Positions 15,011-59,445 of a DNA stretch of 64,000 nt are shown here, piece by piece. The translations under genes were made by a program, and so were the position numbers. The notes under the pieces were generated by a model. It ran no database searches and was not told where the DNA came from. It saw nothing but the letters and a program-made list of their open reading frames with translations. The DNA is from Pomphorhynchus laevis (lineage: Eukaryota; Acanthocephala; Palaeacanthocephala; Echinorhynchida; Pomphorhynchidae). The stretch lies in the NCBI GenBank assembly GCA_012934845.2, contig WNNJ02000601.1, positions 124,001 through 188,000 on the forward strand, in the 5' to 3' direction. The first letter of the stretch is position 1. Each line of letters starts with the position of its first letter.

Positions 15011-16467
15011 AATTTTCAAGTTGTCCATACCTGCCCCAAAATTTGATGGCGCTCCATCTCCCTTACGTGTCTTCTCCACTAGACCCTTTCACCACACACG
15101 GTTTCCGCCTCGGCTTCTTCAACATTAGATTAATTCTCAATAAATTCGATATTATTCTTAACCTATTCACCAAGCAATCGATCGATCTCTTCTGCCTCAC
15201 CGAATCCTGGCACTCAGATTCCGACGACCTCTGCATTCGCCATCTGCTTCCTGCCGGTTGCTCACTAGTCAAATCCGCCCACCGCATCAGCTCATGCCCT
15301 TTTAAATTCTCTAATCATGGCGGCATAGTCGCATTCGCCCGTCACCCCGCGTCTCTTCGCAAAATCACTCTCCATTCAGTCCTTGCTCTTTTGAATTGCT
15401 CACTTGTCGTTCTTCTTGACCGATCATTCCGGATCTCGCCATTGTATACCGTACTGGTTCATCAGCTCCTACCTTCTTATTTTTTTACCGAACTACTTAA
15501 CCTCCTTTCTCATTGTTCTTTGTCCTTCATTCCTTCACTCGTTCTAGGCCACATCAACTTCCGCCTTGACCTCCATTCTTCCACCAATTCCATCCGGTTC
15601 ATCAAGATTCTATCTAACTACAATTACAAACTACTATCCACTTCCCCCACACATATCCTCGACGGAGGCAATCGACATCATCGCTGTCCCTGATCGTTTT
15701 GCTGCATACACCTCACTGATCATCTCCAATCCTAATCTATCCGATCACTTTCTCGTCACCCTTGATCTCACTTCCAACCACCCTCCGCTTAACACACCAA
15801 TCATCCTACGTCACCCTTGGAGAAATCTTAATATCCCCCTTCTCCGCTCCACCTTACTTAAATCGTCTCTAACTTCTCACACAATAACATCATCCACTCC
15901 TCACGATCTTGCTTTTATTTTCGACTTTGAACTCACATACACTCTCGATCTCCTCTTGCCCTTCAAGCATCACCCACACCGCAGCTTGCACCGTGCCCCC
16001 GTGGTTTGACATTCAATGCCTACTCTCAAAGCGTCGACTTCATCATGCTTTTCGAGTTTATCACCGCTCTCTCAGACGTGATATCCGCTCGCTCACTCAC
16101 TCCGTCTCTCCGTGATTCCTATCTTGCTCTTCGCCGATCTCATCTCCACCTAATATGTACCAAATGCAACTCCTTCTGACAGCATAAATCAACACTTCAT
16201 TAAACTCCAAGTGTCTCTGACATACTTTTAACTCAATCCTTTCTCGCTCCTCTTCGTCTTGCAACATAAATCCCCATGATTATTCGTCATTTATTCAGAC
16301 CAAAGTATTCACGTTGCTCTCTCACAAACCCGTCTCCGTTCCATCTCACTGTTACTCGCCTCATCCTCCCGGAACTCTCATATTCTAACTGTCTCACTTG
16401 TCGAAGGCTAATCTGTCCTCGTGTCCTTGCCCAACCAAACCTCACCAGCCGATACCCTGCTATCCCC
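15010..16467 (+). pseudogene. HT-b ORF2, APE domain and linker (5' part)
   Basis: From about 15100 the frame reads HGFRLGFFNIRLILNKFD, then CLTESWHSDSDDLCIRH and GGIVAFARHPASLRK. This is followed in other frames by LGHINFRLDL (LGDFN altered to LGHIN) and LSDHFLVTLDL (about 15735-15770). The catalytic D of the GDFN motif appears to be replaced, and there are at least three frameshifts. The gypsy insertion interrupts the segment before RT. Confidence 0.78.
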
Positions 16468-16548
16468 TGTAACGTAAACAAAGTATCAGCTAAAGTAGCT
16501 TTATTAGACACATCTAGAAAATACAAAAGTTAATTACAACAATTATCA
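16468..16548 (-). repeat. 3' LTR of gypsy element (81 bp)
   Basis: This is a direct repeat of 20089-20169 with a clustered five-base difference (16484-16488) and four scattered substitutions, one of them inside the segment that pairs with the putative primer-binding site. The purine-rich stretch just upstream on the minus strand (GGCAGTGGAGAATA, about 16549-16564) is a weak polypurine-tract candidate. Confidence 0.85.
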
Positions 16549-16700
16549 TGATATTCTCCACTGCCAGGAATAGTCATCACGGGAAAGTGGAGTGGTCTTC
16601 TTCCGCAAACTTTTTTTCGTAACATTCTGTGCTTCGGCAACATCGTCTTCAATGCAGTTTCTTCTTTTTCAGCGTCGATCAGATTATCTTCAAGCACATC

Positions 16701-17387: not shown

Positions 17388-18056
17388 TCAAACGGTCGAG
17401 TAGATTTGACTACATGGTTCTAAGAAATGGAACAAAATCGGTTTACAGTACCTGCATGCTTCGCAATTTTCACATATCCTTCTGATATCGTCAGTAGAGT
17501 ACGGCAAGTTTTGGGATCGAACATAGTGTGTAAGTCTTCGCACTCCTGGGTGGCACAAGGCATCGTGTCTCTCCTTCAAGCCGTTTACTCTCAGCGCCGC
17601 GCAATTTCTGGAAAAAGCGTCAGCCAGAATGTTCAGAGAACCAGGGCGGAAGTAAATATCGAAATCATAGTCAGCTAACTCAACTTTCCGGAACTGGATC
17701 TTATCGTTCTTAATTTTATTTACGTTGCTCTTGAATATGAATCTGACATATTGTTGATCTGTTATAATCTTAAAATGTCGCCCAATCAAGAGATGCCGCC
17801 ACTTTCTGAGGGTTTCAACAATGGCTAGCGCTTCCTTCTCGACTGATGTGTAACGTCGTTTGCTGATAGAAAGCCTCCTCGCAAAGAACGCGACTGGGTG
17901 CGAATCGCCATTCAATGTTGCAGCGATGCGTATGTCAGATACATCAGTTTCGACGGTCAATACATTAGCCTTGTCGATTCGGTACAAAGAAGAACCGGCG
18001 ATATCTTTCTTGAGAGTTTCAAATGCTCTTGATGCTCCGGGTTTCAACGGAAACAT
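17388..18056 (-). pseudogene. Gypsy RNase H and integrase zinc-binding domain
   Basis: The 222-codon open frame starts near the RT/RNase H connection and contains VLTVETDVSDIRIAATL, RRYTSVEKEALAIVETLRKW and FKIITDQQ, typical of Ty3/gypsy RNase H, where a DASD-type motif is usual. It ends with the integrase HHCC finger (HDALCHPGVRRL, then CENCEACRYCKP). The frame is lost before the integrase core. Confidence 0.82.
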
Positions 18057-18667: not shown

Positions 18668-19414
18668 CTATAACAAGTCTTTTTTATGCCGATCAGAACG
18701 AGTCACCACAACTTGGGCACACCATGGCGAAACACACGGTTCGACAGTCCCATCACACAGTAATTTCCTTATTTCATCACGAATAAGCACGCGATCGGAA
18801 GGGTTATATCCACGAGACCGTTTCGCGATCGGAGTACAATCATCAATGAGATGCTGAAACGGTCTGGCTGGTCTTAGGTTGACAGGACTTGTAGTCGCAA
18901 TGACTAATTCCGGCTCTTCACCTTCTAATTTAAACGTTAGGCTTTGATGCAATTTCATAAAATTCATCCCAAGGATCGATTCAAAGCATAGATCATCGAG
19001 TATGTAGAAAGTTATATTCGGATAAGACCGATTCTCGTGTACAATGGAAAGAGTCGCTCGTCCTTGGGTAAACGTCTTGAATCGTTTCGAAGCCATACTT
19101 ATCGGAGTTTTATCGAATTGAAACGACAACTCAAATATTCTGGCAGTTGCAGTTCGCATAAAGTTATTGCAACTACCTGTGTCGGAGAGGCATTCGACCG
19201 CGCAGACTCGAATCACTATGTGAACGACTATTTTTGAAGTACATTTAGTGAACGCTATTGTAGACAGAGTATTAGAGTTGCCGAATTTTGCGGAGCAGCA
19301 AGATCTAGCAAACTTAGTTCCAGCAGACTGAGTTCTTCGCTGGACAATTCTCCAGTCTATGACCGGTCGATCCTTCGCAGAGAAAACACTTCCAATTAGA
19401 TCTAACAGCGGCAC
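18668..19414 (-). pseudogene. Gypsy zinc knuckle, aspartic protease and start of RT
   Basis: A knuckle of the form CFLCEGSTGHRLENC lies in a neighbouring frame near 19405-19350. The long frame has the protease active site LSDTGS (about 19195), the flap/hydrophobic region and the C-terminal ILGMNF. RT begins with VEPCVSPWCAQVVVTRSD. The frame stops near 18668, just after HKKDL, where the RT continues in another frame. Confidence 0.8.
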
Positions 19415-20073: not shown

Positions 20074-20088
20074 ATGTGCCTAATAAAC
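20074..20088 (-). promoter_or_regulatory. Putative self-priming primer-binding site
   Basis: One base inside the 5' LTR (minus strand) lies TTTATTAGGCACAT, a perfect 14-nt complement of ATGTGCCTAATAAA within the LTR itself (20121-20134). A tRNA-type site starting TGG is not seen. The layout is that of Tf1/sushi-type elements, where the 5' end of the RNA folds back, is cleaved and primes minus-strand synthesis. Function is inferred. Confidence 0.6.
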
Positions 20089-20169
20089 TGTAACGTAAAC
20101 AAAGAGATTGCTAAAGTAGCTTTATTAGGCACATCTAGAAAAGACAAAAGTAAATTACAGCAATTATCA
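20089..20169 (-). repeat. 5' LTR of gypsy element (81 bp)
   Basis: On the minus strand the LTR begins TGATAATTG and ends TTACGTTACA. It contains AATAAA within GTGCCTAATAAAGC, which may serve as a polyadenylation signal. LTRs of gypsy elements are usually several hundred bp, so 81 bp is exceptionally short. The segment at 20121-20134 is the perfect reverse complement of 20074-20087 just outside the LTR. Confidence 0.85.
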
Positions 20170-21577
20170 TGGCATCCCCATTCTTAATTCCATATGATCA
20201 TCGATATCCCCTTTCCTCACCACCTTGTTTAACTCGTCAAACCGCAGTCGTATCTTTCCATCACACTGAAGATCCGCAATATTTTGTCCCCTCCTTAAGA
20301 AACAATCGCTCGACTCCTCACTTTCTTCTAGCTATCATCCCATTTCACTTCTCCCTACACTTTCCAAACTCTTAGAGCGCCTTATCTTAATACAGATCAG
20401 CATTTATCTCTCTTTATCTAATCTGTACCCTCCTTTCCAATTCGCTTTCCGCTCTAATAACTCTACAGAAATCGCCTGCGTGAAAGTTTACAATGACCTA
20501 CTCATATCTCGTGACAGGCTCTATATAGTGTTCTCATCTCCCTCGACTACATATCTATCCGACGGTTATTTTCGAGTCTGTTCAAATCCATTATTCACTC
20601 CTCACATCCCGATTTTCTGCGGGGTTCCACAAGGTTCAGTCCTAGGACCCCAGCTTTTATCTCTTCTACTCGACGATTTCTCACCGTTTATCAAACCTTA
20701 CTCCTTTAACGTCATACACTACGCCGATGACATCATCATATATGATCATGCAACCGCCCATCGCATACACAATACCGAAATTTCTGCCTCCAACTGTCTT
20801 TCTTCTATTTACAAACGTATCTCCCATCTTGGTCTCGTTCTAAACCCAGACAAGTCCAAACAATTATGGATCCTCTCCCGTCAACCTTACATATATCCTC
20901 CCCCTGTATCGTTTGCATCATCAATAATTTCCATAGTCCACGATCTCACTTTCTTAGGATTCCATTTCGATGATCACCTTTTCCTTCGACCCTTTGTCTG
21001 CGACAAGGTCCACTCGTTTAACTTAATTCTCCGTGACATTCGCCATATCCGCCCCCCCCCTTATCGACTTCCGTTCCTCATGCCTATTCTCTCATCGCTT
21101 CTTTTCCCTAAAATCGATTACTGCCTTAGCCTTTTCGCTATTTCTCCAAAATCCATCATCCTACCCCTACAACGTATCATCAACTCCGCCATTCGAGTGC
21201 TCCTACGTCTCCGTCGCTTTGACCACACATCTACATATCTTGCCCAACTCTTCTGGCCTATCATCCACATCCGCATACAACTCCGCCTTCTCGTAATTTT
21301 CGTTTAATCGCTGTCGGTTCTCCATCGTTCATCAACCTCCCTTTCCTAGACGACACTCGCCTCACCTCTCTCTATCACTGCGTTCCCGATCCTTCCTACA
21401 CGCGCCCCACTCGCCTAAATGAGCTTCCTCTCGACGTCTTCCGCGCTCTCTCCTTTATTTCATTCAAATGCCGCCTTCGTACCCACCTCCTCGAAACATG
21501 ATTTAGATTTTTTGTTGTTGTGGTCATGTAAACAAGGGCCGGCACTCATTTGTCACTTAAAAATAAATATATATTTT
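20170..21577 (+). mobile_element. HT-b LINE, 3' part (after gypsy)
   Basis: This continues the copy that starts at 14065. RT (20180-21450) and a degraded 3' tail follow: the usual hairpin is damaged (AACAAGGGCCGGCACTC) but TTTGTCACTTAAAAATAAAT is recognisable at about 21540-21565. The 3' end is placed near 21577. Confidence 0.82.
20180..21480 (+). pseudogene. HT-b reverse transcriptase (after gypsy insertion)
   Basis: The longest frame (20480-21307) has VYNDLLISRD, FCGVPQGSVLGPQLLSLLL, VIHYADDIIIYDHAT (YADD about 20725-20740), LNPDKSKQLWIL and FLGFHFDDHLFLRPFV. A deletion removes the segment between LISRD and YLSDGYFRV that normally holds LDLSSAFD, so the first catalytic Asp is lost. The frame also shifts in the C-terminal region. 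Confidence 0.82.
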
Positions 21578-22326: not shown

Positions 22327-24595
22327 TCAAGTAGATAAATTGTTTAAATGGGATCGGATTTGTCGTTTGAAGCACGGCAAGGAAGTTGATTGGTGTATAT
22401 GAATGGGCAGATGGTTCCACGATAGAGGAGCAGCCACAATGAAGGAGCGGAGTCCAAAGGAGGTAGAGTAGTTTGGGACATGTAAAAGAAGGGAATTACA
22501 GGAACGCAAGGAACAGTAAACAGGACGAGAATTATCAAGAAAAGGAAGATTGAGAAATGAAGGGGTATGAAGAGTTACAAGGCGGAAAGCAACGATAAGA
22601 AGACGAATTTATACACGACAATAAATTGTAGGCAAATCGAGAGAAGCAAGATGGCAGGATGTATGATCAAAACGACGAAGACGGAGGAGAATTCGGCCGT
22701 CTGCGTTGAGGATGCGTTGTAGGGGAAGAAGACTGGATTTAGGTGAGTTGGAAAATAGACTAAGACAATAATCGAGTCTAGAAAAAAGGAGAGAAGATAT
22801 TAGAGTCATACAAGAAGGGAAATCGATCAATCTACGAACTCGACGGAGATTGCGGAGTATCAAGGTAGATGAGCGTAATTTATCTCTAACGAAAGGTTTA
22901 AGTGAAAGTCGGTTGTCAAAATGGAAGCCTAGGAAAACGAGATTATCAACGATAGGAATAATTGTAGAATTTAATGATACGGAGGGAGGTTCGAAGCCGA
23001 TGCGTTGAGGTAGGATCCACGTAATTTTGGATTTATCAGGATTCAGAGAAAGGCGAAGGGAAGAAAGATGATTGGAAATTGAGACAAGACAGTCCGAAGC
23101 GGAAACACTAAGATCGTGAATACGATAAACAGGTGCATGGGCATAGATGAGAATGTCATCAGCATACTGCATAACATTGAAGTTAAATTTATGAGAAATC
23201 GAAGACAAATCACCAAGAAGAAGAGAGAAAAGTATAGGGCCTCATACGGAGCCTTGTGGAACACCGGACGGAATGGACGAAGGATGAGAGAGAAGAGTTA
23301 GAATATACGCGAAATGTACGATTTGATAGATATGAAGAAAACCATGATACAGTGGGTAAAGAGAAGCCATAATCATGACGAAGGCGATGGAGAAGAATCG
23401 AGTGATCGACGATGTCAAAAGCAGACGATAGATCAAGAGAAACTATGACACTACATAATTTATGATCGCGCGATATGAGTAAGTCGTTATAAACTTTAAG
23501 ACATGCAATTTCGGTAGAGTAATTAGAGCGAAAAGCGGCTTGGAAGGGAGGAAATAAGTTAGATGAATAGAGATATGTATTAACTTGCTTAAGAACGAGA
23601 CGCTCAAGGAGTTCAGAGAGGGTTGGGAGAAGTGAAATAGGACGGTACGAAGATGGTAGTGAGGAGTCGAGAGATTGCTTTTTGATGAGAGGACGAACAG
23701 TGGCGCATTTCCAGATGGAAGGAAATGTACAGCTACGGATGGACGAGTTGAACAATGTGGTTAGGAAGGGTAAGATAAAGGAGCAGATATTTTTAAGCAA
23801 GTGAGTGGGAATTGGGTCAGAAGGAGAGGTTTTATTAGGTAATGACAGCAGAACCGAAGAAACTTCATCAGACGAAACGGGAAGAAGGTGGAATAGTTCT
23901 GGGAGGGAAGTATTTAAAGAGAAGAGTGGGTACAAGGGGGCTACGGGTAGTATGGAAAGTAAATTAGATAGCTTAGTTTGTAGATAAGAAGAAAATTCAT
24001 CAGGATTTATATTACAAGAAGTAGATGATCGTGAAAGAATTGAGTTTAAGATTTTCCAATGAGATTTAGAGTTGGAAGATGACTCGAGTTGATTTCGACA
24101 AAAGATAGTACGTTTAGTACGTATAAGAATAAGATGTGAACAGCGTAGAGAAAAGTAGGAATCACGGAGATTTGGAGGGAGTGAGTTGGGAGAACGTTTA
24201 AGAAAGCGATTATACAAACGAAAATAGTGACTGAGTCGACGCTTAGAAAGACTACAGTCAGAATCGAACAAGGGAGCATGGCGCAAGCGCTGAGAACGTC
24301 GGAGTCGACTAGAGAGAAGGTTATTGATGATAGACATAAGTTCAGAATCAAAAAGAATACAGAGATCATCGGTATAAATATAGTTAAGTAGAATCGAAAA
24401 GAGTGAAGAATTGGGTAAGGCTGTGCAGAGAATAGGGATATCGAGAAGTTTCCAGGGTCGACTTGGTGTGGATATTGATGGAGGCGGAGAAGGATGGGGG
24501 ACGAGTAAGAGTAAGAGTGACAAGGAAATGATCGGACAAACCGGGATCAGTAATTGACAAGGATGTATAGTCATTGAAGCATTTAGGAATTGCAA
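22327..24595 (-). pseudogene. HT-a linker, reverse transcriptase and C-terminal region
   Basis: One frame runs 24595-23210 through the APE/RT linker and the RT blocks SLPNKTSPSDPIPTHLLK, YRPISLLPTLSELLERLVL, RSNYSTEIACLKV and LDLSSAFDIVDHS. GVPQGSV appears in the neighbouring frame (about 23260). The frame at 23208-22609 holds NVMQYADDILIYAHAP (catalytic YADD), LNPDKSKITWIL and FLGFHFDNRLSLK. The C-terminal part continues at 22509-22327. Two main shifts lie near 23240 and 22610. Confidence 0.85.
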
Positions 24596-28853: not shown

Positions 28854-31313
28854 CTACGGCCTCAGGTCCAGCGGGATCTGAGCCCTCCAGCTAATCCAAC
28901 ACGCCGCTCTTCGACTGAACCACCCGGGGTCTATCACCCCCCGAAGAATCCAATCTAGGCGGACTATGCGCGGTAATCGCGAGATGAGGAGCTTGAGAAA
29001 CCTTAGTCTTTGCTCTGGAGGACGTCCTCTCGAAAAGAAGACTAATCCCGAGATAGCCCAAGTACCCCAGAGGCGCACTTGGGTTTTCCCATTCAACGAC
29101 AGATGCTGAGCCCGTTTCAGGGCCCACCTAGCTTTCTTCAGGATACGTTTAAGTCTATCCAGGTCAGCTTTCGTCGACCAGTTCACCATAACAGTGAACC
29201 CCAGGTATTTTACTCGACTTGTGAAGGTAGGGAGTGGTTGATTAGTCAATATAGAAGATAGAGCTGAGAGTGCTAGTCTCTTTAATTTTTTCTTTGTCGC
29301 AGGGGTGCCATGAAAGACAACTACCTGCGATTTGGATGAATTTAAAATAAGATTGGATAGGGTCAGCTAGTCTGTTAATCTTAAAAAGAAACGGCTGATG
29401 TCCGAAGCGACATCTTTGCACCTGCGTCCAGAGAACAGGGCCGTGGTATCATCAGCGTATACCACTAGATGTTGATCACGTTTAAAATTCTTGAATAGTA
29501 CAATGGAGGCAGCAAGAAATAAGATAGGAGAAAGTGGAGATCCTTGGGGCACACCTGTAATAGGGTAGAACTGACACGCATCAGGGTCGTCTTCATAGTA
29601 GAACCTCTTGGTAAACAGTAATATCTCCACCCTGTTAACAATTCTCGCAGGCAACCCGAGGGACCTGAGAGAGGAGATAACAAAGGGAATGGAAATGCGG
29701 TCAAATGCAGCAGAAAAGTCAAGGAAAACAGCCACAGCTAGTTGATGGCTATTATCCCTACAAAACTGATGCACTTCACCTATTGCTGAATGAACCGAGC
29801 GTCCCTTGACAAACCCGTGAAAACTCGGTGGGATCAAATTACGCCTACTTAAATGGTCGCGGATTCTACGCGCAAGCGCTTTTTCGTAGATGGAGATGAG
29901 GGAGTTTTGAATCGAAATGGGACGCAGATCTTTGGGACATGAAACCGGACTATGCTTTGGTAAGAAAATTCTACGACTAATATTGATGCCGGCTACATCG
30001 GATGGTGAGGCTAAAAGCATTGTGACGGCCACTTCTCTTCTTTGATCGGCTGTCAAAAGCTGACAGACTCGAGAAGATAGTGGAGCGACGGATTTAGAGG
30101 TGCCCGGAAGTGGCCCCCAGAAGTTAAGGATATCTGTAACAGATAAGTCCCTGCTCCTGAAGTCACCCCAAGGCGGGATTGGTTGGGGAGATTGAGTGGC
30201 TCCATAATTATGTAGGGATAGTGACTCCTTCAAAACATTATCAAGGCCTATACTACCAATCCAACCCAAAGCTCTATCCTTCCAACAGACAAACTTCTCC
30301 TTCTTGAATATCTTCCAGAAGGAAGACTGAGAAGGGTTAAGGTGAGCGATGTTCGCCTTATCCCTGCTCAGCTGGAACCTATATCTAGTGCTCCAGTATT
30401 CATTCGAGATGGCCTGCCTGGCGGAAACAGAGACATTGGGAAGACGTAGCATTTTAGCCAAAACCTTGAGTTTTGTTGGAGTGGGATTGTAAATATGACC
30501 TTTATAGGTAGTCGAAAGAAACGCGGTAGCTTGCGAGGAGAGGAAGGAATTAAATTCGGTCAAATTCTCATTAATAATTCTGGGGAAGAGTTGGATAGCC
30601 GCCTGAAAGAAAGCCACTCTGATGGGATCAAAGTGAAACCTCCTTCTAAGCAACGTATCTTCCTCTATCCGCCAACGAATTAGGTCATGAGAGATGGTCT
30701 GTTTTTGGCGCGACTGCTCAGTACAGATGGGTTTCAACAACCACATCTTATGAAGCAGTAATATGTCGAGGAGAGAATTAGTTGTTGAGCAATGAAAAGT
30801 TGGGGACGGTGGTTTGTGAATAAGGTAATCGTTCCTGGCTCTGCGGAGTGCTGCATTAATCCAACGACCAGTTCTGTCGTTGAAGTCACCGAGTAACATG
30901 TCATAGCCACTACCCAAAATACGGTCCAGGAGATCACGGTTCTTGTGAATTTCCCCTGGCCTAATATAGATATTGGCTATGCTGATACGTTTACCATTCT
31001 TACAAAGTGAAACAGCTAAACAAGACAGGGCTGGACAAGAATAGTTTAAAAGAAGGGATGATCTTAAGGAGCATTTAACTAGGGTTAAAAGACCTTGAGA
31101 TGAAGAGGCGTGAGGAGGGGTTATGTACGGAGTGAAGTGGGTGTAAATATGCTTGGGGATAAATCGAGTAATGTCCTGGGGGATACGGATAGACCGCGTC
31201 TCCTGAAGGACTATAACATCCGCATCTCTACCAGATAGAAGGCTAAGGGCAGAAGCACCTCCCGAATTCCACTGAAGTATATTCAGTGAAAAAGGCTCTT
31301 GACTACTTTGCAT
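28854..31313 (-). pseudogene. LINE-D ORF2, APE and reverse transcriptase with one in-frame stop
   Basis: The frame runs 820 codons from ATG at 31313 to TAG at 28854-28856, interrupted only by TAG at 29367-29369 (codon 649). Reading continues in the same frame with coding character on both sides. APE: LNILQWNSGGAS, VIVLQETRS, LLGDFNDRTGRW, LLDILLLH, SHDLIRW. RT: DLRPISIQNSLISIYEKALA, FVKGRSVHSAI, VFLDFSAAFDRI, GVPQGSPLSPILF and the catalytic VVYADDTTALF (about residues 617-627). After the stop come LNSSKSQVVVF and VKYLGFTV (thumb). The stop truncates the protein just after the catalytic palm. Confidence 0.87.
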
Positions 31314-35046: not shown

Positions 35047-37969
35047 TTGTCCACACCCGTCCAAAAATTCAATGGCGCTCCATCTCTCCTTGTGTCTTCT
35101 CCACTGGTCTCTTTCGCCACAGCACACGGTTTCCGCCTCGGTTTCCTCAACACTAGATATATTTTCAATAAATCCGATCTTATCCTCAACCTATTCACCA
35201 AGCAATCCATCGATCTCTTCTGCCTCACCGAATCCTGGCACTCAGATTCCGACGACCTTTCCATTCGCAGTCTGCTCTCTGCCGGTTGCTCCCTAGTCGA
35301 ATCCGCCCGCCCCCTCAGCTCATGCCCTTCTAAATCCTCTAATCATGGCGGCATCGTCGCATTCGCGCGTCACCCAGCGTCTCTTCGCAAAATCAATCCC
35401 CCTTTCAGTCCTTGCTATTTTGAATTGCTCACTTGTCGTTATTCTAACCCGATCACTCTAGATCTCGCCATTGTATACCGTCCTGGTTCATCAGCTCCTA
35501 CAGCCTTATTTTTTACCGAACTCGCTGACCTCCTTTCTCATTGTTCTTTGTCCTCAATCCCTTCACTCGTTCTAGGCGACTTCAATATCCGCCTAGACCG
35601 CCCCTCTTCCACAGATTCCATCCGCTTCATCAACATTCTATCCAACTACAATTACAATCTAATCTCCACTGCCCCCACACATATATTTGGCGGGACACTC
35701 GACATCATCGCTGTCCCCGATCATTTTGCTGCCCACACCTCACTGTCTATCTCTGATCCTGGTCTATCCGATCACTTTCTTATCACCCTTGATCTCGCTC
35801 GCAACCACACCCCTCCTCACCCACCTACAATCCTACGTCGCCATTGGAGAAATCTTGACCTCTCCCTTCTCCGCTCTGCCTTACTCAAATCGTCTCTATC
35901 ATTACGCACAATAACATATTCATCTCCTCACGATCTCGCCTTTCTTTTCGACTCTGAACTCACATCCACTCTCGATATTCACTTGCCCTTCAAGTCTCAC
36001 CCACACCGTCGCTTGCACCGTGCTCCATGGTTTGACATCCAATGCCTACTCTCAAAGCGTCGACTCCGCCATGCTTTTCGAGTCTATCACCGCTCTCTCA
36101 GACGTGATTTCCGCTCGATCACTCCGTCTTTCCGTGATTCCTATCTTGCTCTTCGCCGGTCTCATCTCCACCTACTACGTACCAAATGCAACTCCTTCTG
36201 GCAGCATAAAATCATCACTTCATTCAACTCTAAGACTCTCTGGCATACTTTTAACTCAATCCTGGCTCGTTCCTCAACGCCTTGCAACATCAATGCTAAT
36301 GATTATTCGTCATTTCTCCAGACTAAAGTATCCACGCTGCTCTCTCACACCCTGGTATCCATCCTATCCCACTCTGCCCAGTCTACTCTCATCCTTCCGG
36401 AACTCTTTCATCTTCTCCCTGTATCACCTACAGAAGTATCATCTGTCCTCATGTCCTTGCCCAACAAAACCTCACCTGCCGATCCCCTGCCTACCCACAT
36501 ATTAAAATCTATATGCTCATCGATATCCCCATTTCTCACAACCTTGTTTAACTCGTCCATCCGCAGTCGTATCTTCCCTTCACACTGGAAATCCGCAATC
36601 GTTCGTCCCCTCCTTAAGAAACAATCGCTCGACCCCTCCCTTCCTTCTAGCTATCGCCCCATTTCACTACTCCCTACTCTTTCAAAGCTCTTAGAACGCC
36701 TCATCTTAATACAAATCAACGCTTATCTCTCCTCATCCAATCTGTACCCTCCTTTCCAATCCGCTTTCCGCTCTAATCACTCGACAGAAATCGCATGCAT
36801 AAAAGTGTACAACGACTTACTCATTTCTCGAGACAAGGCTCTATATAGTGTTCTTATCTCCCTCGACCTCTCCTCCGCATTCGACATTGTCGACCACTCC
36901 GTCCTCCTTTCTCGCCTTCGTTATGATTACGGCTTTTCTTCCTCCTCCGTAGCTTGGTTCGCCTCATATCTATCCGACCGTTCCTTTCGCGTCTGTTCTA
37001 ATTCATCATCCTCCCCTCCCATCCCTATTTTTTGCGGGGTTCCACAAGGTTCAGTCCTAGGTCCCCTGCTTTTCTCTCTTTTGCTTGGCGATCTTTCTCC
37101 ATTTATCAAATCTTACTTCTTTAACGTCATGCAATACGCCGATGACATTCTAATCTATGCTCATGCACCCGCACATCGCATACACGATATCGGCATTTCT
37201 GCATCCAACTGTCTTTCTTCTATCTACAAACGTCTCTCCAATCTCCATCTCGTTCTAAACGCCGAAAAGTCCAAAATAATGTGGATCCTTCCCCGTAAAC
37301 CAAGCATATCTCCTCCCATTGTATCTTTTGTTTCATCGATCATCCCTATAGTCCACAATCTCACTTTCTTAGGCTTCCATTTCGATGATCACATTTCCCT
37401 TAAACCCTTCGTCCGTGACAAGGTTCGCTCGTCTAACTTAATTCTTCGTGACATCCGCCGTATCCGCCCCCTTATCGACTTCCGTTCTTGTATGTCTCTT
37501 CTTTCATCGCTTCTTTTCCCTAAAATCGATTACTGCCTTAGCCTTTTCGCCAATTCTCCAAAATCCATCATCCTACCCCTACAACGAATAATCAACACCG
37601 CCGTTCGAGTGCTCTTTCGTCTCCGTCGCTTCGACCACACATCCACATATTTTGCCCAACTCTCCTGGCCCACCATCCACATCCGCATCAAACTCCGCCT
37701 TCTTCTCGTTACTTTTCGTCTCATCGCTGTCGGCTCCCCATCGTTCATCAACCTTCCTTTCTTAGAACGATACTCGCCCCACCTCGCTATCGCTTCGTTC
37801 CTGTCATACCCTCTTACTCCACGTTCCTAATTACTCCAACAACTACGGTCTCCGATCCTTCCTCGTCGCCGCCTCACTCGCCTGGAATCAACTCCCTCTC
37901 GACGTCCGCCGCGCTCCCTCCTTTATCACATTCAAACACCTCCTCCGTTCACACCTTCTCGACACCTGA
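35047..37969 (+). pseudogene. HT-b ORF2, APE plus reverse transcriptase, one frameshift from intact
   Basis: A 927-codon frame from ATG at 35047. APE (about residues 30-260): LNTRYIFNKSDLIL, CLTESWHSDSDDLSI, GGIVAFARHPASLRK, LDLAIVYRPGS, LVLGDFNIRLDRP, LDIIAVPDHF and the catalytic GLSDHFLITLDL. Linker: LHRAPWFDIQCLLSKRRLRH. RT (about 440-780): LPNKTSPADPLPTHILK, SYRPISLLPTLSKLLERLI, FRSNHSTEIACIKV, LDLSSAFDIVDHSVLL, GVPQGSVLGPLLFSLLLGDL, NVMQYADDILIYAHAP (YADD about 697-700) and LNAEKSKIMWI. The frame ends at 37830 because one base is inserted near 37766; the copy at 44834-45997 shows the uninterrupted C-terminus ending in a stop equivalent to 37967-37969. All key catalytic residues of APE and RT appear to be present. 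Confidence 0.88.
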
Positions 37970-43914: not shown

Positions 43915-46074
43915 TCAAATCGTCTCTATCATTACCCACAATAACATATTAATCTCCTCACGATCTTGCCTTTCTTTTCGACTCTGAACTCACATCCACT
44001 CTCGATATTCACTTGCCCTTCAAGTCTCACCCACACCGTCGCTTGCACCGTGCTCCATGGTTTGACATCCAATGCCTACTCTCAAAGCGTCGACTTCGCC
44101 ATGCTTTGAGTCTATCACCGCTCTCTCAGACGTGATTTCCGCTCAATCACTCCGTCTTTCCGTAATTCCTATCTTGCTCTTCGCCGGTCTCATCTCCACC
44201 TACTACGTACCAAATGCAACTCCTTCTGGCAGCATAAAATCATCACTTCATTCAACTCTAAGACTCTCTGGCGTACTGTTAACTCAATCCTGGCTCGTTC
44301 CTCTACGCCTTGCAGCATCAATGCTAATGATTATTCGTCATTTCTCCAGACTAAAGTATCCACGCTGCTCTATCACACCCCGGTCTCCATCCTATCCCAC
44401 TCTGCCCATTCTACTCTCATCCTTCCGGAACTCTTTCATCTTCTCCCTGTATCACCTACAGAAGTATCATCTGTCCTCATGTCCTTGCCAAACAAAACCT
44501 CACCTGCCGATCCCCTGCCTACTCACATATTAAAATCTATATGCACATCGATATACCCATTTCTCACATCTTTGTTTAACTCGTCCATCCGCAGTCGTAT
44601 CTTCCCTTCACACTGGAAAATCTGCAATCGTTCGTCCCCTCCTTAAGAAACAATCGCTCGACCCCTCCCTTCCTTCTAGCTATCGCCCCATTTCACTACT
44701 CCCTACTCTTTCTAAGCTCTAAGAACGCCTCATCTTAATACAAATCAACGCTTATCTCTCCTCATCCAATCTGTACCCTCCTTTCCAATCCGCTTTCCGC
44801 TCTAATCACTCGACAAAAATCGCATGCATAAAAGTGTACAACGACTTACTCATTTCTCGAGAGAAGGCTCTATATAGTGTTCTCATCTCCCTCGACCTCT
44901 CCTCCGCATTCGACATTGTCGACCACTCCGTCCTCCTTTCTCGCCTTCGTTATGATTACGGATTTTCTTCCTCCTCCGTAGCATGGTTCGCCTCATATCT
45001 ATCCGACCGTTCCTTTCGCGTCTGTTCTAATTCATCATCCTCCCCTCCCATCCCTATTTTTTGCGGGGTTCCACAAGGTTCAGTCCTAGGTCCCCTGCTT
45101 TTCTCTCTTTTGCTTGGCGATCTCTCTCCATTTATCAAACCTTACTCCTTTAACGTCATGCAATACGCCGATGACATTCTAATCTATGCTCATGCACCCG
45201 CACATCGCATACACGACATCGGCATTTCTGCCTCCAACTGTCTTTCTTCTATCTACAAACGTCTCTCCAATCTCCATCTCGTTCTAAACGCCGAAAAGTC
45301 CAAAATAATGTGGATCCTTCCCCGTAAACCAAGCATATCTCCTCCCATTGTATCTTTTGCCTCATCGATCATCCCTATAGTCCACAATCTCACTTTCTTA
45401 GGCTTCCATTTCGATGATCACCTTTCCCTTAAACCCTTCGTCCGTGACAAGGTCCGCTCGTCTAACTTAATTCTTCGTGACATTCGCCGTATCCGCCCCC
45501 TTATCGACTTCCGTTCTTGTATGTCTCTTATTTCATCGCTTCTTTTCCCTAAAATCGATTACTGCCTTAGCCTTTTCGCCAATTCTCCAAAATCCATCAT
45601 CCTACCCCTACAACGAATAATCAACACCGCCGTTCGAGTGCTCTTCCGTCTCCGTCGCTTCGACCACACATCCACATATTTTGCCCAACTCTCCTGGCCC
45701 ACCATTGACATCCGCATCAAACTCCGCCTTCTTATCGTTACTTTTCGTCTCATCGCTGTCGGCTCCCCATCGTTCATCAACCTTCCTTTCTTAGACGATA
45801 CTCGCCCCACCTCGCTATCGCTTTGTTCCTGTCATACCCTCTTACTCCACGTTCCTAATTACTCCAACAACTACGGTCTCCGATCCTTCCTCGTCGCCGC
45901 CTCACTCGCCTGGAATCAACTCCCTCTCGACGTCCGCCGCGCTCCCTCCTTTATCACATTCAAACACCTCCTCCGTTCACACCTTCTCGACACCTGATTC
46001 ACAGTTTTGTTTTGTTGTGGTCATGTAAGCGTGCGCTGGCACGCATTCGCCACGTTAAAATAAATCCTTTTTTT
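43915..46074 (+). mobile_element. HT-b LINE, 5'-truncated, nested in LINE-H
   Basis: Starts at TCAAATCGTCTCTATC (equivalent to about 35888 in the full copy) and ends with the family hairpin (46029-46044) and GCCACGTTAAAATAAATCC plus a T run at 46074. Length 2,160 bp. LINE-H coding sequence stops at GATTTAGGGATC (43914) and continues at ATTGTCCATAGATCC (46075) in a consistent way. I see no clear target-site duplication. Confidence 0.9.
43930..45997 (+). pseudogene. HT-b ORF2, linker, RT and complete C-terminus
   Basis: Early parts are frameshifted (44072-44533 is a shifted frame; SLPNKTSPADPLP is read in another). From 44834 one frame of 387 codons runs to the natural stop at 45997: ISLDLSSAFDIVDHSVLL, GVPQGSVLGPLLFSLLLGDL, NVMQYADDILIYAHAP, LNAEKSKIMWI, FLGFHFDDHLSLK, and the C-terminus FITFKHLLRSHLLDT. 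It provides the undamaged C-terminal reference for the copy at 35047. Confidence 0.88.
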
Positions 46075-58308: not shown

Positions 58309-59445
58309 TCAAGAGTTCACGAGGTCAAGCTTTAGGCATTCTTTGAATTGCACCGCAGAAGAGCTGTTGATTACACCAGGTGATAATCCATTCCATCGTT
58401 TACAGACGCGACCCATCACTGTCGTGCAATTTGTTCGATGCTTTGAGCGATCCTTTAAACATAGCTTGTGTCCACGTAACATTGAGGATTCACGAAGACA
58501 GAACAGCTGCTTACACGGATAGTTAGGCACGCGCAGCGACATCCACACTAGTGTAAGATCTGCAATCAACAGATCGCATTCAATAGATCTTATACCCAAC
58601 GTCTCTAGTCTAACTGGATAAGGAATGGAGCGAGTTGCCGGAACCAAGTGCTTGGCTCTTCTCAAAATGTTGTCGAATTCACTCAATTCTGATTTCAGTT
58701 GAGGGTGTGTCGCGTGAGATGCATAGAGCATATGTGATTTTAAGAGACTCGAATATACAATGCGTAAAGCCTTTGGCTCAAGTCGTCTAACGTTTCGATG
58801 AAGAAATCCTAAAATTCTATGGCATTTTGCAATAATCGCAGAAGAATGAAGACGAAATTTTAAATTGGAGGAGATAACAACACCTAGATCAGTAAAGTGA
58901 TTTACTGATTCGATAACTGTTGAGCTGAATTGATAAGAAGGGGAAGGTAATCGGGATTGACCAATTATCATATGTCGACATTTACAAACATTGATTACTA
59001 AGCCGTGTGATGAACACCAACTACTAACTTTATACAAATCTGATTGTAGTAGGGGAGAGCTAGAACAACCACTAAATAAAGGGCACCACAGTTTCATGTA
59101 ATCGGCGTATAATAGGCACTGGCATGTAACATTTTCAGCGATTTCGTTTATGTAGATATTAAACAAAGTGGGACTAAGGATACAGCCTTGTGGAACACCT
59201 TGAGTGAGATAAAACATTCAGAAAGAGACTCACCAACTCGCACAGCAAAGGAACGTCTACTCAAGAATTCACGTATCCAGAGACAGACGTGCTTTGAGAA
59301 TCCGTAATTTCCAAGTTTCCACAGTAAAATTGGATGCATGACCTAATCAAAAGCTTTGGACAAATCAATAAAGACGACATCAACCGGCACCCCCTGTTCG
59401 ACAAAACCGGCCCAGCTTTCGCGTGCTAATGTTAGATTAGTTGAA
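58309..59445 (-). pseudogene. LINE-B2 ORF2, reverse transcriptase and C-terminus
   Basis: After the insertion: TNLTLARESWAGFVEQGVPV, VVFIDLSKAFD with a stop just after it (59340-59342), then IREFLSRRSFAVRVGESLSE, TQGVPQGCILSPTLFNIYIN and LLYADYMKLW, where the catalytic YADD has become YADY (about 59115-59095). The C-terminal RESSMLRGHKLCLKDRSKHR and RVCKRWNGLSPGVINSS end at 58309. The YADY change would abolish RT activity. Confidence 0.85.

Follow-up and report, generated by a model that had tools for sequence, protein, structure and literature searches.

Self-priming of LTR retrotransposons is best known from fungi, yeasts included, and from fish, in elements that bear a chromodomain. In the Tf1/sushi group (Tf1, Tf2, Tj1, sushi-ichi), as in the elements described below, the primer-binding site (PBS) just past the LTR is complementary to an upstream LTR segment that is taken as the 5' end of the RNA (for Tj1, PMC4600332; PMC numbers here and below stand for extracts of the papers concerned). 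These extracts tie Ty3/gypsy self-priming to that chromodomain group (PMC3601003, PMC6317226, PMC10085805): chromoviruses usually bear a chromodomain and self-priming is common in Tf1/sushi (PMC10085805), and hairpin priming is used by some chromoviruses (PMC3601003). Self-primers have also been predicted from LTR-PBS complementarity, as here though in other lineages and hosts, for Tcn1 among the chromoviruses and for TAR copia elements of plants (PMC6317226), and the same source assigns to the self-priming class LTR elements whose PBS is complementary to an upstream LTR segment over at least 10 bp and lies 0-5 bp past the LTR. Among animals, bivalve TRIM elements share with ours the lack of a recognised tRNA PBS, and self-priming has been mentioned for them, but the inverted repeats concerned are confined to the inner domain instead of joining the LTR with the PBS position, and the extract proposes no clear mechanism (PMC6934838). 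Mag-type and CsRn1-type elements of insects and flatworms likewise belong to the animal Ty3/gypsy elements, and LTRs can be short among them (119-304 bp in the Culex Mag-type, PMC3286476), but the extracts give them a PBS for tRNA-Leu/Ser/Arg or tRNA-Trp. A literature search, whose reach did not extend to key older papers, turned up no insect gypsy element, and no animal gypsy element lacking a chromodomain, for which self-priming is reported.

Here we analyse a gypsy-type element in a 64,000-nucleotide stretch of the Pomphorhynchus laevis genome (the window), together with its relatives. Judging from sequence comparison, the 14-nt site beside its 5' LTR is very probably the landing place of a self-primer in the family to which this copy belongs. 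The observations are the pairing itself, its place one base past the LTR, compensatory change in ten families, and two copies of related families that carry primer tails.

The element in the window

The element is old, about 3.7 kb long, on the minus strand and nested in a non-LTR element (Table 1). Since a 5-bp duplication, tcccc, stands at both sides, the ends of the LTRs are fixed, and the 5' LTR limit of 20169 given in an earlier note on this DNA is corrected to 20174 (LTR of 86 bp, 20089-20174). On the sense strand the 5' end reads, within the LTR, ...CTTTTCTAG, ATGTGCCTAATAAA, GCTACTTTAGC...GTTACA (20174-20089), followed by G (20088) and TTTATTAGGCACAT (20087-20074). The last of these, as the earlier note had it, is a minus-strand PBS one base inside the 5' LTR and the perfect 14-nt complement of 20134-20121; the complementarity ends at both sides. 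The window copy is old, with a pol split across several frames, so any statement on self-priming concerns the past working of its family; some related families include copies with open frames of more than 1,200 aa. Many matches elsewhere in the genome cover the flank of the insertion alone, starting at about 20168-20180. Outside the gypsy element the window is crowded with RVT_1 reverse transcriptases, as of non-LTR retrotransposons.

Table 1. Positions in the window of the gypsy-type element and its surroundings, and predicted primer/PBS pairs of the families found in P. laevis
Feature	Position	Strand	Basis or remark
5' LTR, 86 bp	20089..20174	-	direct repeat of 16468-16553 plus flanking 5-bp duplication; sense TGCCATGA...GTTACA
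3' LTR	16468..16553	-	89% identity with 5' LTR over 84 nt; primer segment is ATGTGTCTAATAAA
Predicted self-primer, sense ATGTGCCTAATAAA; predicted RNA 5' end 20134	20121..20134	-	perfect PBS complement; same place in nine other families
Poly(A) hexamer AATAAA, 3' end of primer segment	20121..20126	-	sequence
Single spacer base G, LTR to PBS	20088	-	sequence; one base also in nine other families if their LTRs end in CA
Predicted PBS, sense TTTATTAGGCACAT	20074..20087	-	sequence
Purine-rich stretch, sense GGCAGTGGAGAA, presumed polypurine tract	16554..16565	-	sequence; GGAGAA precedes the 3' LTR in families B and C too
Target-site duplication tcccc (plus strand), left copy	16463..16467	.	sequence
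Target-site duplication tcccc (plus strand), right copy	20175..20179	.	sequence
pol piece: RNase H and integrase zinc finger	17388..18056	-	Pfam RT_RNaseH 2e-21, Integrase_H2C2 1e-5
pol piece: protease	18668..19414	-	weak Pfam gag-asp_proteas 2e-4, under curated cut-off
Reverse transcriptase of the non-LTR element into which the gypsy element inserted	20480..21307	+	Pfam RVT_1
Other RVT_1 reverse transcriptases	188-2532, 23210-24595, 29367-31313, 35047-37830, 44834-45997, 58309-59217		some with Exo_endo_phos
Family A primer/PBS			ATGTGCCTAATAAA/TTTATTAGGCACAT
Family B primer/PBS			ATGTTTTCAATAAA/TTTATTGAAAACAT
Family C primer/PBS			ATAGTTGAATAAA/TTTATTCAACTAT
Family D primer/PBS			ATGTTCGCATAAA/TTTATGCGAACAT
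Family E primer/PBS			ATTGATTTTGATAAA/TTTATCAAAATCAAT
Family F primer/PBS			ATATTACTCAATAAA/TTTATTGAGTAATAT
Family G primer/PBS			TGTATTAGAATAAA/TTTATTCTAATACA
Family J primer/PBS			ATTGTTCAAATAAA/TTTATTTGAATAAT; one G.U

Were the element self-primed, its RNA would begin at 20134, the first paired base; the first 14 nt would fold back onto the PBS (13-15 nt across families, with a loop of 25-51 nt), RNase H would cut after AATAAA, and the freed 3' end would start minus-strand DNA. That the RNA starts there, is cut by RNase H and primes is our inference from the DNA sequence. The self-primer hairpin is the minimum-energy RNA fold in all four families folded (A-D), and 1, 5, 12 and 17 of 200 shuffles, respectively, fold at least as well, so that the folds are not all exceptional. 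Directly before the predicted RNA start, seven of the ten families have a T-rich run ending in YAG (20135-20146 in the window), which resembles an initiator or a 3' splice site; it was read in the window and in L088, L091, L094, L102, L105, L107-L111, L113, L115, L097 and L098. Pairing begins 1 nt after the motif in family G and 3 nt after it in I, the motif lies 13 nt upstream of the primer in H, and one family B copy (L087) has lost it.

The same geometry in ten families

A search with the RNase H-integrase region gave at least 150 scored relatives. In families A-D the PBS lies about 2.03-2.05 kb upstream of the start of the match, a constancy that made small targeted reads at the predicted PBS position possible. 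A junction was present in ten of 18 such stretches (L094-L096, L101-L115), and all of these were complementary, though one includes a mismatch and another a G.U pair; the remaining eight held none, two of them (L103, L114) adjoining the junction of a known family and six being without an element end. L095 has an unrelated 11-nt inverted repeat and no element end. The family-like copy at C1986 ends in what resembles a 3' LTR, and its 5' piece yielded no junction; two scans of IMG/VR for relatives returned none.

Ten families with different primer and PBS sequences emerged, eight (A-G, J) in the P. laevis genome and two, H (L097) and I (L098), each on a 4.0-kb contig binned with bacterial genomes, presumably as an environmental eukaryotic contaminant. 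These two contigs hold gypsy elements whose ends overlap by 155 and 145 nt, with one LTR found, and presumably represent contamination in the form either of collapsed repeats or of one-LTR circles. Neither contig has any perfect inverted repeat of at least 10 nt within a 90-nt span besides the self-primer pair.

All ten families show an LTR end, one spacer base and then the PBS, with a loop of 25-51 nt, the LTR ends being known from LTR copies in A, B and C and taken elsewhere from the CA that precedes the spacer. The pairing extends over 13-15 nt, is perfect in the representative copy of nine families and includes one G.U in that of the tenth; its length and its distance from the LTR lie within the limits given above for the self-priming class. 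Complementarity was found at every one of the 28 junctions read (A 11, B 4, C 2, D 2, E 1, F 3, G 2, J 1, H 1, I 1), 12 of them imperfect: ten A copies, one of the three F copies (L105) with one mismatch, and J with its single G.U. The LTR of family B measures 90 bp, with the duplication AACGT in one copy, and that of family C 79 bp, with the 4-bp duplications CTAC and ATCT in two copies. At C2154:50620-50940 (L099), the first part of a family B LTR leads into a 3' internal piece, after which come a full LTR and a PBS, an arrangement suggestive of template switching by reverse transcriptase.

Scored over the 13 positions nearest the 3' end of the primer, ten of which vary among families, pairing with the own partner is Watson-Crick in 129 of 130 cells (130 of 130 counting G.U), and pairing with the PBS of a foreign family averages 7.6 of 13, with a maximum of 11. 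None of 200,000 reshufflings of the ten families reaches the observed pairing sum, and with nine families the true assignment alone, out of 362,880 permutations, attains it. One copy per family entered this comparison, the window copy standing for A, where any other copy would score at least one lower. As the arms were located through their pairing, there is some circularity in the score of 13 out of 13; what is independent in the covariation evidence is the constant position, one base past the LTR end. The earlier note had asked whether LTR and PBS segments change together in other copies: between families they do, with ten different pairs at the same place, and within family A the picture is less clean, all ten other copies being mismatched.

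Eleven family A copies were read with both LTR and PBS (L015 and L016, of equal score, may be one assembly duplicate). The window copy pairs at 14 of 14 positions. The ten others have A in the PBS where the window copy has G, which gives an A.C mismatch; eight of them are gap-free with 11-13 of 14 positions paired, and in L012 and L014 the LTR segment carries an indel. Among the 11 copies read, the window copy is therefore alone in its perfect 14-nt match. The primer segment of the window's own 3' LTR, ATGTGTCTAATAAA, is a perfect complement to the PBS in six of the ten other copies. Under self-priming such a mixed state would be expected, provided that one strand receives a copy of the primer and the other a copy of the old PBS.

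Primer tails beyond 3' LTRs

If the attached primer is the 5' end of the RNA itself, plus-strand synthesis would copy it, and the spacer with the primer copy would then stay outside the 3' LTR until trimmed by integrase. The self-primer of Tf1 is reportedly not removed, to go by the title of one study. In two copies the 3' LTR is followed by the spacer and a full primer copy and then by unrelated DNA: C1550 (L033) in family B, one of 22 ends read (one of the 22 being a solo LTR), and C1523 (L129) in family C, one of 16 3' ends. The C1523 tail stops exactly where the pairing stops and the C1550 tail within one base of it. Such endpoints fit a primer that is the 5' end of the RNA itself, and breakage at random within the internal region would seldom produce them twice. 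No primer tail occurs in seven 3' LTR flanks of family A.

For family B, C1550 alone stands among three apparent extensions past the 3' LTR in 40 scored matches, C2154 being in fact a 5' junction and the extension of C2886 a matter of chance. Three 3' junctions of family C begin like the PBS for 9 nt (C2149, L092), 6 nt (C2091, L119) and 5 nt (C3086, L128); they were left uncounted as partial tails, two with the wrong spacer base, and are possibly trimmed primer tails or the result of target-site preference. The tailed C1550 copy breaks off on its 5' side beside an inverted partner, and the expected 5' end of the C1523 copy lies beyond its contig. C1550 has two family B 3' ends (L033 and C1550:13542-13694) in opposite orientation, about 3.1 kb apart, one of them fully tailed; this insertion is odd and perhaps arose from incomplete cDNA joined at its ends.

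The poly(A) hexamer and other explanations of the pairing

The primer segment ends in AATAAA in seven of the ten families and in ATTAAA, CATAAA or GATAAA, one-base variants of the poly(A) signal, in three; in family H one further paired A follows the hexamer. Because the primer includes the hexamer and the PBS stands only beside the 5' LTR, the hairpin would cover the poly(A) signal of the 5' LTR but not that of the 3' LTR; masking of the 5' signal is thus a predicted and likely second use of the same structure. RNA structure hides the 5' poly(A) signal in some retroviruses, and the hairpin might do this and nothing else, another RNA priming at or near the PBS. Such a division of labour would account for the hexamer, or a one-base variant of it, at the 3' end of all ten primer segments and for a PBS partner at the 5' LTR alone; it leaves unexplained the pairing of 6-9 mostly variable bases upstream of the hexamer, the fixed site one base past the LTR, the lack of TGG and the tails after two 3' LTRs, and we consider it improbable.

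Priming at the PBS by a conventional or fragment tRNA, with the LTR complementarity incidental, has on its side that animal gypsy elements usually rely on tRNA primers, for example tRNA-Leu/Ser in the Culex Mag-type (extract of PMC3286476) and tRNA-Trp in the CsRn1-type (extract of PMC2582038). The earlier note had held out the possibility that a tRNA 3' end matches the PBS better, and none of those compared did: ARAGORN, run on 30 tRNA loci of 63 scored matches, gave 36 genes with 23 distinct sequences, and against these 23, which span only eight anticodon types (one ambiguous), the nine PBS of families A-I match at best at 9 of 14 or 9 of 15 positions. None of the ten families has a PBS beginning with TGG, and the PBS differ among families yet track their own LTRs. 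We regard tRNA priming at this site as very improbable.

That the pairing is a chance inverted repeat has a negligible probability. In its favour stand the richness of the sequence in A and T and the lack of a perfect 14-nt match in the other family A copies read; against it, the LTR-PBS pair is the sole perfect inverted repeat of at least 13 nt with a 20-60 nt loop in all 64,000 bases (loops down to 0 give others), none of 353 window tiles of 181 nt, on a grid that splits the LTR-PBS junction, reaches 12 nt (longest 11), and chance predicts neither recurrence with new sequences in nine other families nor their co-change.

Relation to described elements

The element is a Ty3/gypsy retrotransposon. 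In the window a weak protease, RNase H and the integrase zinc finger stand in Ty3/gypsy order, the RT region being broken and unscored, and family B has RVT_1, RNase H, zinc finger and rve in order. No Chromo match at E 0.1 was found in the family B piece or in 18 members (the window piece, and perhaps other short members, stop before the integrase C-terminus). Of 1257 relatives, 120 were listed with their Pfam domains, again with no chromodomain; those from named species are animals, such as snail, catshark, moth and flatworm species, besides one bacterial MAG entry. With no chromodomain found, elements that would work like Tf1 are not to be filed in Tf1/sushi, and Tf1-like priming apparently occurs outside that chromodomain group. 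The self-priming proposed in the earlier note is supported by the co-changing pairs of ten families, with two amendments: the perfect match is private to the window copy, and the element is not to be counted in Tf1/sushi.

The likeness to Tf1 extends to the RNase H cut at the end of the pairing, described there (PMC7175516) and predicted here. The primer has 11 nt in Tf1 (PMC7175516) as against 13-15 nt here, and the flanking pretzel duplexes of Tf1 (PMC10085805) left no sign in families A-I: pairing of U5 with up to 25 nt downstream of the PBS (simple stems for one of the two duplexes, only 7-24 nt being available for A, E, F and G) beat 95% of shuffles in none of the nine. Set against Tf1/sushi, the present families have LTRs of 79-90 bp, as measured in A-C, and no chromodomain found; the poly(A) hexamer inside the primer may be a further difference. 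From the CsRn1 clade, with its 4-bp duplications (extract of PMC2582038), they differ in the absence of a TGG PBS in ten families and in the 5-bp duplications of A and B, though C has 4 bp. The tRNA-Leu/Ser PBS of the Mag lineage is likewise not seen, none of the ten starting with TGG; tRNA-Leu and tRNA-Ser were absent from the tRNAs compared.

Implications

The P. laevis genome has at least eight families of these compact elements, and the RNA of each would, in all likelihood, fold back and prime its own copying into DNA. We propose, tentatively, that a broad animal lineage of non-chromodomain Ty3/gypsy elements evolved its own self-priming with a dual-use hairpin, serving as primer and silencing the 5' poly(A) signal while the site in the 3' LTR stays open; if so, promoter, poly(A) signal and primer fit into an LTR of about 80-90 bp. 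That ten families, eight from a single genome and two from environmental contigs, show compensatory change indicative of self-priming, and that no chromodomain was found, suggest a second or a much older origin of the mechanism. A self-priming hairpin would simply explain how an 80-bp LTR carries a start site, a poly(A) signal and a primer, and self-priming would free these elements from the tRNAs of their host.
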